Assembly (NCBI GenBank): GCA_011033025.1
Contig: WFMF01000199.1
Span: 243,932 to 307,931, forward strand
Reading direction: 5' to 3'
DNA from: Beroe forskalii
Taxonomy: Eukaryota > Ctenophora > Nuda > Beroida > Beroidae
DNA: 64,000 bases
The stretch's first letter is position 1; each line of letters starts with the position of its first letter. Below the pieces are notes generated by a model. It ran no database searches. It saw nothing but the letters and a program-made list of their open reading frames with translations, and was not told the origin of the DNA. This document shows positions 5,785-15,169 of this stretch, piece after piece. The position numbers were made by a program, and so were the translations under genes.

Positions 5785-7049
5785 GGATAGAGGAATTCCT
5801 CACCAACAGACGTCAGGCCGTGGTTGTCGATGGCAAAAGTCTGAATTCGCAAATGTCGATAGTGGTGTTCCCCAGGAACTGTTCTGGGTCCCATATTCTT
5901 CATTCTCTACGTGATAGACATGATCATCAAAATTGCCTCGTCAAAATCACTGGCATTTGCAGATGACACTAAGCTCATGCGTCAGATCATCACCATGTTA
6001 TGCAAGGCCCTGTTACAGACAGACCTCGATCAAGTTGTCAGTTGGTCGTTGAACAACAACATGGTGCTCCACCAGGATAAATTCGAGGTAATGAACTTCT
6101 GTCTCAACAACTCGTACCTCCTAAGAAACCTCCCTTTCACTGCGGAGCTGAGGCAGTACACAACACCCGATGGAAATATTCTTCAGCCAACCTCATCCGT
6201 CAGAGACCTTGGTGTTTACATTACCGACGACTGTAGCTGGACCCTACAAGTAAATAATGTTGTAAGAGACTCACGCAAGATCGCCTCATGGGTCCTTGGG
6301 ACTTTCCGGGACAGGTCTGAGCTTACAATGCTGACCCTCTTCAAGTCCTTGCTACGGAGCAGACTGGAATACTGTTGCCCAGTGTGGGATCCCCACTTTA
6401 TCAAGGATATCCAGGCAGTGGAGTCTATCCAGCGTTACTTCACTAAGCGAATAATTGGCACCAAAGATATGGACTATTGGGATCGGCTTAAGAAGCTGCG
6501 ATTGATGTCTCTCCAGCGTAGACGTGAACGATACACGATGATCCATACTTGGAAGATCCTGCAGAACAAGGCCCCAAATAGCACTGGTTTAGAGTTCTAC
6601 AGTAATGAACGTCTTGGAATACGGGCTAAGATCCTGCCATTCAACTACAAGGCACAACGTTCAGTCTCAACAGCCTACGACAACTCATTCGGGGTAAAGT
6701 CAGCTCGTCTCTGGAACTTACTCCCTAAATCAGTCAACTCCGCAACAGCCTTAGAGGCATTCAAAGTAGCCCTTGGAGACTTCCTCGCACAATACCCGGA
6801 TAAGCTACCGGTTCCGGGTTACACACTCTCTAACAGCAACTCCTTACTCGACTGGAGCTGTGAACGAGGAGATGGAGTACGTGGACATCACTGATCCCAG
6901 CTGCGATCCCTGCTAAACCCTTCAAAATGTATCAAAATGTATCCATTGTCACATAGTAAAATTTCCATTATCCATGTCAGATAGTCAAATTTCCATAATT
7001 ATCGGAGAATCCATCTCACATCTAGTCAAATGTCCATTACCCATGCTCG
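5785..7049 (+). pseudogene. 5'-truncated non-LTR retrotransposon (CR1/Jockey-like reverse transcriptase C-terminus)
   Basis: The main frame, 5911-6894, encodes the end of a reverse transcriptase. It has the palm motif FADD at residues 16-19, then a block with DLGVYITDDCSW, the LEYCCPVWDP motif and the YWDRLKKLRLMSLQRRR motif that are typical of the region after the catalytic palm in CR1, Jockey and L2-like LINEs. Upstream the frame breaks: residues like WIEEFLTNRRQAVVVDG (5785-5835) and SGVPQ (5861-5875) lie in other frames, and a one-base loss at about 5876 separates GVPQ from GTVLGPIFFILYV. No endonuclease domain remains. About 150 bp of short direct repeats after the stop (6920-7049, TCAAATTTCCAT-like) look like its 3' tail. 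This is a dead copy. Confidence 0.88.
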
Positions 7050-10692: not shown

Positions 10693-10700
10693 TTGGGTGC
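10693..10700. repeat. 8-bp target-site duplication of outer element, left copy
   Basis: TTGGGTGC here is repeated exactly at 15162-15169, on the two sides of the compound transposon. Confidence 0.85.
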
Positions 10701-10905
10701 CATACCTCGAAAAAATATTTTTTTGCATGTATCCTGAGTTTGAAATCACAAAACTGCATATTTTTTTGCGCAGGCAAATTCTGATTTCATATACAACAAA
10801 AATTATTCACAGGTGCTCGAATTCAATTTCAAAATTCCGTCTCAGCAGCATCCCAAAAGCTCCCTGCACGTTCAGTTGATTTCCTGATTTCTAATAAGTG
10901 GAGCA

Positions 10906-11363
10906 GGGGTCTGGGGGCGGCAGCCCCCAGAAGCCAGACGTTTTCTATAAATAAATTTGCCGCCTCAATAGGATTTTAACTCTTAATTCTGTCCTGTAAG
11001 TTGAGTCGATTGATAACATGTGATGTAGGGGTCTGGGGGGCGGCAGCCCCCAGAAGCCAGACGTTTTCTATAAATAAATTTGCCGCCTCAATAGAATTTT
11101 AACTCTTAATTCTGTCCTGTAAGTTGAGTCGATTGATAACATGAAGCAGGGTCTGGGGGCGGCAGCTCCCAGAAGCCAGACGTTTTCTATAAATAAATTT
11201 GCCGCCTCAATAGGATTTTAACTCTTAATTCCTGTCCTGTAAGTTGAGTCGATTGATAACATGTGATGCAGGGGTCTGGGGGCGGCAGCCCCCAGAAGCC
11301 AGACGATTTCTATAAATAAATTTGCCGCCTCAATAGGATTTTAACTCTTAATTCTGTCCTGTA
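10906..11363. repeat. Four 120-123 bp subrepeats inside the outer transposon
   Basis: Copies begin at 10909, 11031, 11151 and 11274. Each contains the hairpin GGGGGCGGCAGCCCCC, the block CCAGACGTTTTCTATAAATA and the block TAAGTTGAGTCGATTGATAA (absent from the last). Subterminal repeats of this kind often serve as transposase-binding sites; that role is inference. Confidence 0.9.
11356..11363. repeat. 8-bp target-site duplication of inner element, left copy
   Basis: GTCCTGTA lies directly before the inner element end and is repeated exactly at 13592-13599. It is part of the outer element's own subrepeat sequence. Confidence 0.87.
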
Positions 11364-13591
11364 CATGCCACGAAAAAACTTAATCCTGGCCATCCTAGAT
11401 ACATGCAAAATCCTTTTCAAAATATGCAGTTTTGAGATATTTCCAACTCCCAAGACAAAAATGCATAGAATTACTTGAGCTCTATCTTTATTTTAGAAAC
11501 GAATGTGCATTTTTTAAAATAAAATTTGCGCTTTTTTTGTATCTATCGACTTTCCATATCAAGGGATTCTTGTCAATAGCTGTGAAAATGAAACTGCATG
11601 TTTTAAGCACTGGAATGAAAATTATGCATGTTTCAATTATGCATGTTTCAAATCTCATTTGTATTAAAAAATAGTAATTGTATTCATAAAAATTGTACGT
11701 TGAATAAAATTATGATTTTATATAGAACTAGAAAAGCCCGTTGGGCCTGCTAGATAATACAGGACCAAATAATAAGCTCTCAAAAAGTTTATAAAGGAGC
11801 AAATTTGCCATTATTCTTTGGTTACTTTTAGTAATGCTGGACCGGGCAAGTTTTGATTATTATAACTTGCTATTGTATGAATGTATGATCTTAAAATTAA
11901 AACCGAGTATCGTATTCAAACTGACCGTTGAATTAAAGCATTGATTTACGCCAAGAGCTGTCTTCCAAAATCGCAATGTGCTATGCCCAAATTAGATTCA
12001 ATTTGATTTTGCTTCTGTTCAATCTTAAATTGCTCTAAATTCATTTTTCCGTTACCATCAACTCAGCATTAATTTAAATCGACCGACGTCTGCCAAAGAT
12101 TTATGAAGAAATGCTATCGGAAATAGTCTCCACGATGCCAGTCATACCCGTCCTCTATCTTCGGATCTTGAATTTGAAATTAAAAACAGCAAACAGGCCG
12201 TTCTTTCAAACGCTACAATGCAGCAGTCAACAACGTATCAGAAAGCACTCGCAAAGAAATGATCATAATCTGCACGCAGAATATCTGTATCCATAGCAAC
12301 GGCGCGACTTAGCCCAGCTTAGCCTTCGTTTCTCTTGATATTTACTTGGCAAGCTCAAATTTAAAATGTGCGCCCGCACATACATAATTCACGTGCTCTT
12401 ACGAAATTATATAAGACTAGCAGGCCCGTTGGGCCAGCTAATACACAGCTCACTCAGAGCTCGCAAATTTCAACCAATGCAATTCAAATTCAATTAAAAC
12501 TCCGATCCGTTCAAAAGTTATATTAGAGATCGCGCAACGTAATCAAAACACCATTAACAGAAATGAGCGCGCGCGCAATTCTCCGTGCACGTGTCACCAT
12601 GGTTACCCGCACAAATCGTAATGCGCGCGCGTTCCGAAGATGTTTCTGCCGTTACGTACAAACAGAAAAACAGAGGTTGCGAAATTATATTAGAGATATT
12701 AAATTGCCCCAGATCCCAATCTACTGGATTTAATCTTCATCTCTGTAGAAATTGTACCTACATAAACATTACATTTGCTAAGGTTCCTTGATCTTAAATT
12801 ACGTTGAAATAAAGAAATAAGAGTTATATAATCCTATTGAGGCGACAATTTTATTCATAGAAAACGTCTGGCTTTTGAGGGCTGCCGCCCCAGACTCCTG
12901 CTTCACATGTTGTCAATCGAATCAACTTACAGGACAGAATTAAGAGTTAAAATCCTATTGAGGCGGCCAATTCATTTATAGAAAACGTCTGGCTTCTGGG
13001 GGCTGCCGCCCCCAGACCCCTGCTTCACATGTTATCAATCGACTCAACTTACAGGACAGAATTAAGAGTTAAAATCCTATTGAGGCGGCAAATTTATTTA
13101 TAGAAAACGTCTGGCTTCTGGGGGCTGCCGCCCCCAGACCCCTGCTTCACATGTTATCAATCGACTCAACTTACAGGACAGAATTAAGAGTTAAAATTCT
13201 ATTGAGGCGGCAAATTTATTTATAGAAAACGTCTGGCTTCTGGGGGCTGCCGCCCCCAGACCCCTGCATCACATGTTATCAATCGACTCAACTTACAGGA
13301 CAGAATTAAGAGTTAAAATCCTATTTAGGCGGCAAATTTATTTATAGAAAACGTCTGGCTTCTGGGGGCTGCCGCCCCCAGACCCCTGCTCCACTTATTA
13401 GAAATCAGGAAATCAACTGAACGTGCAGGGAGCTTTTGGGATGCTGCTGAGACGGAATTTTGAAATTGAATTCGAGCACCTGTGAATAATTTTTGTTGTA
13501 TATGAAATCAGAATTTGCCTGCGCAAAAAAATATGCAGTTTTGTGATTTCAAACTCAGGATACATGCAAAAAAATATTTTTTCGAGGTATG
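11364..13591. mobile_element. Inner transposon: inverted copy of the outer one
   Basis: This 2,228-bp copy begins CATGCCACGAAAAAA and ends with the complement of CATACCTCGAAAAAA. Its first 1.57 kb (11364-12933) is the reverse complement of 13592-15161, and its last 0.66 kb (12934-13591) is the reverse complement of 10701-11363. The subrepeats run in opposite orientation at about 12835-13395. Small differences from the outer copy (for example TATTTAGGCGG for TATTGAGGCGG) show that it is a separate insertion of a close relative. No transposase frame is present. Confidence 0.88.
11741..12440. repeat. Palindrome-linked repeat unit inside the inner transposon
   Basis: A degraded palindrome (CCCGTTGGGCCTGCTAG) at about 11751 and another (CTAGCAGGCCCGTTGGGCC) at about 12418 bound about 675 bp. 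That stretch shares the CTGCACG and TCTCTTGATATTTAC blocks and the GCGCCCGCACA block with the tandem units at 27.3-28.9 kb. The mirror copy lies at about 14090-14790. Confidence 0.75.
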
Positions 13592-13599
13592 GTCCTGTA
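13592..13599. repeat. 8-bp target-site duplication of inner element, right copy
   Basis: GTCCTGTA repeats the sequence at 11356-11363, after which the outer element resumes with AGTTGAGTCGATTGATAA. Confidence 0.87.
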
Positions 13600-15161
13600 A
13601 GTTGAGTCGATTGATAACATGTGAAGCAGGGGTCTGAGGGCGGCAGCCCCCAGAAGCCAGACGTTTTCTATGAATAAAATTGTCGCCTCAATAGGATTAT
13701 ATAACTCTTATTTCTTTATTTCAACGTAATTTAAGATCAAGGAACCTTAGCAAATGTAATGTTTATGTAGGTAATTTCTACAGAGATGAAGATTAAATCC
13801 AGTAGATTGGGATCTGGGGCAATTTAATATCTCTAATATAATTTCGCAACCTCTGTTTTTCTGTTTGTACGTAACGGCAGAAACATCTTCGGAACGCGCG
13901 CGCATTACGATTTGTGCGGGTAACCATGGTGACACGTGCACGGGAGAATTGCGCGCGCTCATTTCTGTTAATGGTGTTTTGATTACGTTGCGCGATCTCT
14001 AATATAACTTTTGAACGGATCGGAGTTTTAATTGAATTTGAATTGCATTGGTTGAAATTTGCGAGCTCTGAGTGAGCTGTGTATTAGCTGGCCCAACGGG
14101 CCTGCTAGTCTTATATATAATTTCGTAAGAGCACGTGAATTATGTATGTGCGGGCGCACATTTTAAATTTGAGCTTGCCAAGTAAATATCAAGAGAAACG
14201 AAGGCTAAGCTGGGCTAAGTCGCGCCGTTGCTATGGATACAGATATTCTGCACGTGCAGATTATGATCATTTCTTTGCAAGTGCTTTCTGATACGTTGTT
14301 GACTGCTGCATTGTAACGTTTGAAAGAACGGCCTGTTTGCTGTTTTTAATTTCAAATTCAAGATCCGAAGATAGAGGACGGGTATGACTGGCATCGTGGA
14401 GACTATTTCCGATAGCATTTCTTCATAAATCTTTGGCAGACGTCGGTCGATTTAAATTAATGCTGAGTTGATGGTAACGGAAAATGTGAATTTAGAGCAA
14501 TTTAAGATTGAACAGAAGCAAAATCAAATTGAATCTAATTTGGGCATAGCACATTGCGATTTTGGAAGACAGCTCTTGGCGTAAATCAATGCTTTAATTC
14601 AACGGTCAGTTTGAATACGATACTCGGTTTTAATTTTAAGATCATACATTCATACAATAGCAAGTTATAATAATCAAAACTTGCCCGGTCCAGCATTACT
14701 AAAAGTAACCAAAGAATAATGGCAAATTTGCTCCTTTATAAACTTTTGAGAGCTTATTATTTGGTCCTGTATCTAGCAGGCCCAACGGGCTTTTCTAGTT
14801 ATGCATAAAATCGTAATTTTATTCAACGTACAATTTTTATGAATACAATTACTATTTTTTAATACAAATGAGATTTGAAACATGCATAATTGAAACATGC
14901 ATAATTTTCATTCCAGTGCTTAAAACATGCAGTTTCATTTTCACAGCTATTGACAAGAATCCCTTGATATGGAAAGTCGATAGATACAAAAAAGCGCAAA
15001 TTTTATTTTAAAAAATGCACATTCGTTTCTAAAATAAAGATAGAGCTCAAGTAATTCTATGCATTTTTGTCTTGGGAGTTGGAAATATCTCAAAACTGCA
15101 TATTTTGAAAAGGATTTTGCATGTATCTAGGATGGCCAGGATTAAGTTTTTTCGTGGCATG

Positions 15162-15169
15162 TTGGGTGC
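15162..15169. repeat. 8-bp target-site duplication of outer element, right copy
   Basis: TTGGGTGC repeats 10693-10700 and closes the compound element. Confidence 0.85.

Follow-up and report, generated by a model that had tools for sequence, protein, structure and literature searches.

Maize double Ds elements, which belong to the hAT superfamily and break chromosomes, are the precedent for the structure described here: one element sits inverted inside another that is otherwise identical to it, with 8-bp duplications, four ends and no transposase of its own. English et al. 1995 reportedly had double Ds-like elements as its subject. Passages of Du et al. 2011 (PMC3260210) state that multiple ends are found in all chromosome-breaking Ds, that Ds elements nest less often, probably because nested ones come to break chromosomes and would be selected against, and that B73 yielded no chromosome-breaking double Ds. 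Titles and abstract openings in the literature yielded no self-inserted hAT element outside maize, which is not proof of absence in print; the part of PMC3903597 that was consulted holds nothing on self-insertion, and PMC5148889 applies the term self-insertion to Helitrons. The locus reported here is a block at positions 10693..15169 of a 64-kb window (the whole stretch of DNA analysed, part of contig C246 in an assembly of 216 Mb and 1134 contigs), in which a DNA transposon, the host, contains a complete inverted copy of the same element, the guest, with separate exact duplications for each, as in double Ds. The block adds a further case to this known type, and its double-Ds-like structure probably arose when one copy transposed into its twin, either after replication or between alleles.

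The order of the block, checked to the base, is X-Y-X'-Y', with a host element of 2225 bp (10701-11363 plus 13600-15161) split by an inverted copy of 2228 bp (11364-13591). When the guest and one copy of the inner duplication were removed, the host could be aligned over its full length with the reverse-complemented guest, and 2189 of 2217 aligned bases were identical (98.7%). Both 8-bp target duplications are exact, with TTGGGTGC at 10693 and 15162 and GTCCTGTA at 11356 and 13592. The four ends, all intact, read inward as CATACCTCGAAAAAA from 10701 and 13591 and as CATGCCACGAAAAAA from 11364 and 15161. An earlier sequence-only reading of this DNA had described the same order, both exact duplications and four shared ends, all of which proved exact, and the alignment of split host against inverted guest that it called for is the one given above. 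The 2.2-kb element of that reading has the right length but is composite, consisting of an element of ~1.26 kb and a 969-bp Helitron-type insertion, designated insertion B. The features of the block are as follows.

10693..10700, + strand: left copy of the outer target-site duplication, TTGGGTGC.
10701..11363, + strand: left part of the host element (X), comprising the L end CATACCTCGAAAAAA and the larger part of the subrepeat array.
10886..11363 (approximate limits), + strand: host array of ~122-bp subrepeats that contain a GC-rich palindrome, resuming at 13592-13701.
11356..11363, + strand: left copy of the inner target-site duplication, GTCCTGTA, also within a subrepeat unit.
11364..13591, - strand: complete inverted guest element, 2228 bp, with its R end at 11364 and its L end at 13591.
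11728..12696, - strand: Helitron-type insertion B in the guest, with units at 11728-12416 and 12417-12696, the CTAG end at 11728 and the TC end at 12696.
12830..13406 (approximate limits), - strand: guest subrepeat array.
13592..13599, + strand: right copy of the inner target-site duplication, GTCCTGTA.
13600..15161, + strand: right part of the host element (Y'), terminating in the R end CATGCCACGAAAAAA (inverted).
13830..14108, + strand: Helitron-type unit 1 of insertion B in the host, TCTCTAATATAATTTCG ... GGCCCAACGGGCCTGCTAG.
14109..14798, + strand: Helitron-type unit 2 of insertion B in the host, adjoining unit 1, TCTTATATATAATTTCG ... GGCCCAACGGGCTTTTCTAG.
15162..15169, + strand: right copy of the outer target-site duplication, TTGGGTGC.

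The two duplications differ in weight, because TTGGGTGC occurs in the window at the two outer sites only, whereas GTCCTGTA is a piece of the subrepeat unit with 11 occurrences on both strands, and as an 8-mer alone is the weaker evidence. The alignment of host and guest runs without a gap across the joint, and the host therefore has exactly one surplus GTCCTGTA in comparison with the uninterrupted guest. The existence of single copies elsewhere, on which the sequence-only reading turned, was borne out by 33 other copies with exact 8-bp duplications, and chance is therefore no serious explanation of the duplications observed here. A chimeric or palindromic join made during assembly is very improbable: the region is repeated and inverted and is known from a single assembly, and two other family elements with ends on different contigs indicate that misjoins at the repeat are possible, yet a foldback would give one palindrome with identical arms, whereas in the block two inverted repeats are interleaved, the differences amount to 1.3% and are scattered along the element, and two distinct target duplications, each exact, stand where they are predicted. 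Intramolecular autointegration of a single excised element is described in part of PMC3952818 for excised Sleeping Beauty and piggyBac, and it is scarcely credible for this block, as self-attack rearranges one copy and cannot yield a complete second copy inside the host with its own exact duplication.

Helitrons insert between A and T without duplication, start with TC and terminate in a hairpin followed by CTAG. Insertion B is 969 bp long in both copies, is located at the same base between A and T (TCTCTAATATAATTTCG ... GGCCCAACGGGCTTTTCTAG) and is made up of two adjoining units with Helitron ends; its A^T insertion without duplication, its TC...CTAG ends and its 3' hairpin are those of a Helitron. 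The A/TC...CTAG/T boundaries were observed in the host, as well as in the two other Helitron loci read (L006 and L007), of which one has several units and one has unit 2 alone. Of the 10 solo copies compared, 8 read through the site without interruption, as ...ATA/TTATGCATAAAATCG or something close to it, and the two C231 copies diverge from this sequence after TTATGCA. The Helitron Rep domain has 20 matches in the assembly. Insertion B shares with non-autonomous Helitrons the A/T site, the TC start, the hairpin-CTAG end and the tandem units, with no notable difference.

The junction of the element with the Helitron on the TC side, searched as a 31-mer with up to 3 mismatches, has two matches in the 216-Mb assembly, both in the block, against 0 for the control. 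Of 652 core sites (those outside the subrepeats and the Helitron), 6 distinguish host from guest in the multiple alignment and 4 in the pairwise alignment, and the closest of 31 solo copies displays a core difference of 4.2%. Host and guest are set apart from the family by 16 substitution columns and 9 gap columns, and the 16 bases occur in none of the 31 solo copies. In the maximum-likelihood tree of these 33 sequences, the two were grouped with an ultrafast bootstrap of 100 on a stem of 0.028, with tips of 0.0030 for the host and 0.0066 for the guest. The private Helitron junction and the 16 private substitutions point to the host's own twin, and not to an ordinary family member, as the source of the guest, which was most likely derived from that twin (sister chromatid or allele). 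Self-insertion of a seemingly non-autonomous element, as first proposed for the block, is supported by the private junction, the private substitutions, the sister clade and the solo copies with 8-bp duplications, and so more strongly than the letters of the window alone could show. Four of the six core differences are located within 13 bp beside the Helitron end (host 14801-14813, guest 11713-11725), where the host has the commonest family base and the guest departs from it. At the remaining two, which adjoin a gap and may be due to noise in the alignment, the guest matches the family at one site and carries the commonest base at the second.

The same likeness would be expected if a Helitron-bearing member had entered a Helitron-free copy and arm-to-arm gene conversion had later equalised both, the Helitron included, a course of events that we regard as unlikely. 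Long inverted arms are expected to convert, and 8 substitutions within 112 bp (outer positions 606-717) lie at the inner insertion point, where the homologies end. Against conversion, the subrepeat segment is fast-evolving in 11 of 12 other pairs with core distances below 1%, with values of 1.6-13.7%, the twelfth pair being at 0/189, and the value for this segment between host and guest is 4.8%, although the 12 pairs are not all independent and the unit register in the arrays is uncertain; in addition, zero substitutions were observed in the first 265 and the last 348 bases, at the other boundaries of the arms. The cluster of differences at the inner insertion point needs no conversion, because other close pairs diverge there too, and conversion as the main cause of the host/guest likeness was demoted on this ground.

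The end pattern CATRCCWCGAAAAAA has 84 exact matches in the assembly, compared with 2 for a reversed-pattern control; with one mismatch allowed, the search returned 194 matches against 75 for the control and was not useful. Among the 90 ends examined, 74 form 37 pairs sharing an exact 8-bp duplication, including 35 same-contig pairs (33 outside the block and 2 here) and 2 split between contigs. The other 16 ends have no exact partner: the two sides of C437 differ by one base; C936, C460 and C208:184459 have unlike flanks; the left end of C266 is damaged; and the rest are single, with C469:772129 a poor match and maybe a chance one. The exact 15-base end at C249:5802 was taken as a chance match, the surrounding stretch having no family match. 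The 31 solo copies measured comprise 25 of 834-1572 bp and 6 of 1.8-2.4 kb, the latter with interiors unlike the Helitron insertion here, and four further family copies are 2.4-3.3 kb long. Within the exact-end list, the nested order L, R, L-inverse, R-inverse occurs in this block only.

In two family elements the left end lies on one contig and the right end on another (C183:161646 with C157:263394; C35:256152 with C869:147747), each with identical 8-bp duplications on both sides, TGCTACCT and TAAATCAT respectively, where about 0.0015 such split matches are expected by chance among the unpaired ends (hand estimate). They are either rearrangement breakpoints or misjoins inside the element; identical duplications are as expected if a rearrangement cut the element, and are at most suggestive of breakage. 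Another family copy, at C209:53957-55520, is interrupted by open reading frames that by eye resemble a Penelope-type element with a GIY-YIG domain.

Related copies are clustered in the assembly. Six pairs lie within 20 kb start to start (five without this one), compared with 0.23 expected at random for 50 copies, in which the four pieces of the two split elements are counted separately. The closest relative was found within 50 kb for 6 of the 50 copies, a value reached in none of 10,000 location permutations; with this pair excluded, it was found within 50 kb for 4 of 48, a value reached in 21 of 10,000. Three other near-identical pairs were observed, on C736 (0.3%), C231 (0.5%) and C403 (0.8%), and these represent separate insertions and not segmental duplications, because the exact duplications of their members differ. 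The C736 copies, at 125054-127285 (-) and 127396-129516 (+), face each other head to head across 110 bp, and each is flanked by an exact 8-bp duplication of its own.

The element appears to be non-autonomous, and membership of the hAT superfamily is the leading guess. Its 8-bp target duplication, seen in 35 same-contig exact pairs among the 90 ends, is as in hAT; 8-bp duplications together with short ends beginning CA fit hAT and also other superfamilies. The hAT target preference is nTnnnnAn, and the 34 of 35 target sites with full flanks have, at symmetrised position 2, T at 0.32, C at 0.31, A at 0.28 and G at 0.09, so that any target preference is at most weak. The hAT dimerisation domain has 23 matches in the assembly, only one of them on a contig with an exact family end, at a distance of 281 kb, and searches for KDZ and P-like RNase H domains, which gave no match even in controls, are uninformative. 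The hAT label of the sequence-only reading is accordingly not established, with no transposase linked to the ends and a weak target-site profile.

For a cut-and-paste element to enter its own copy, two coexisting copies are needed, the second lying on the sister chromatid after replication, on the homologous chromosome or at some other place. A twin at this very locus fits the private Helitron junction and the local clustering better than a distant donor does; neither observation tells sister from homologue. The proposed history would start with a cut-and-paste DNA transposon that makes an 8-bp duplication at its site, most likely of hAT type and with its transposase supplied from elsewhere, already carrying two short Helitron-type insertions in tandem. 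In the course of replication or after it, we infer, one twin copy (on the sister chromatid, or as the homologue's allele) would have excised and reinserted, reversed, into the subrepeat array of the other twin, producing the double element. The source of transposase would have been silent afterwards, allowing the four-ended structure to persist; that the double element lasted to about 1% difference suggests such silence.

Several points weigh against this history. It does not account for the four clustered guest substitutions next to the Helitron end; a donor with the same Helitron may have existed and since been lost, or may be absent from this single assembly; and the Helitron and the private substitutions could have passed from one inverted arm to the other by gene conversion. 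As to local hopping, two of the six pairs within 20 kb (both on C208) are not close relatives, nor are a third C208 pair and a C598 pair, both within 50 kb; of the two C231 copies, one is more similar to a copy located on a different contig; and the signal apart from this pair comes from three close-relative pairs. As to the transposase, no family end was found in the 3' flanks (1.1 kb each) of the three of 23 hAT loci that were read, where the best match to the end pattern has 12/15 bases and does not start with CA. No transposase-like open reading frame was seen in 52 stretches among the longest frames of at least 150 amino acids, with at most three per stretch, inspected by eye with no protein-library search.

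The inverted pairings of X (10701-11363) with 12928-13591 and of Y (11364-12927) with 13600-15161 are interleaved, and the predicted folds are a Y/Y' stem of about 1.56 kb with a loop of 672 nt or, alternatively, an X/X' stem of about 0.66 kb. Because the pairings interleave, one strand can form either Y/Y' or X/X' in full and never one complete hairpin; the large snap-back structure suggested earlier for the block is thus possible as regards long stems, but its two stems are mutually exclusive in one strand. The predicted fold of a single subrepeat unit has the expected GC stem, and the whole unit has no extra stability over shuffled sequences (z -0.86; 37 of 200 shuffles equally good). The arrays of ~122-bp subrepeats (10886-11363, 12830-13406 and 13592-13701) differ in length among family copies, and in 11 of the 12 other close pairs their rate of divergence exceeds that of the element flanks about 2- to 45-fold.

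Elsewhere in the window, a Pfam scan of eight open frames returned laminin G, laminin-EGF, Ras-family and RING-variant matches, with three frames matching nothing; laminin domains are a sign that the genome is that of an animal. The open frame at 5863-6894 (+) displays a weak reverse-transcriptase match (PF00078, 20.8 bits, under the cut-off of 29.6) and is probably a fragment of a retrotransposon without long terminal repeats (non-LTR).

The nested scars and the private internal marker make a twin origin arguable from sequence alone, and in this way the block would document sister-copy or allelic transposition; if a partner transposase is found, it also marks a locus for potential breakage and hairpin-RNA effects. 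A wider interpretation, in which the block is a natural, probably animal counterpart of McClintock's double Ds, formed via sister-copy transposition in a locally hopping, chromosome-breaking family, is distinctly doubtful. In comparison with non-autonomous hAT elements, the family agrees in its 8-bp duplications, in short ends that begin with CA, in numbering dozens of copies and in that no transposase-like open reading frame was noticed, and differs in that no partner transposase is linked to it and nTnnnnAn is not clearly visible. In comparison with maize double Ds, no partner transposase is known here and the likeness is one of sequence structure, not of breakage; this block belongs, moreover, to a probably animal genome, its end sequences are unrelated to those of Ds, and it carries a subrepeat array and a Helitron in both copies.

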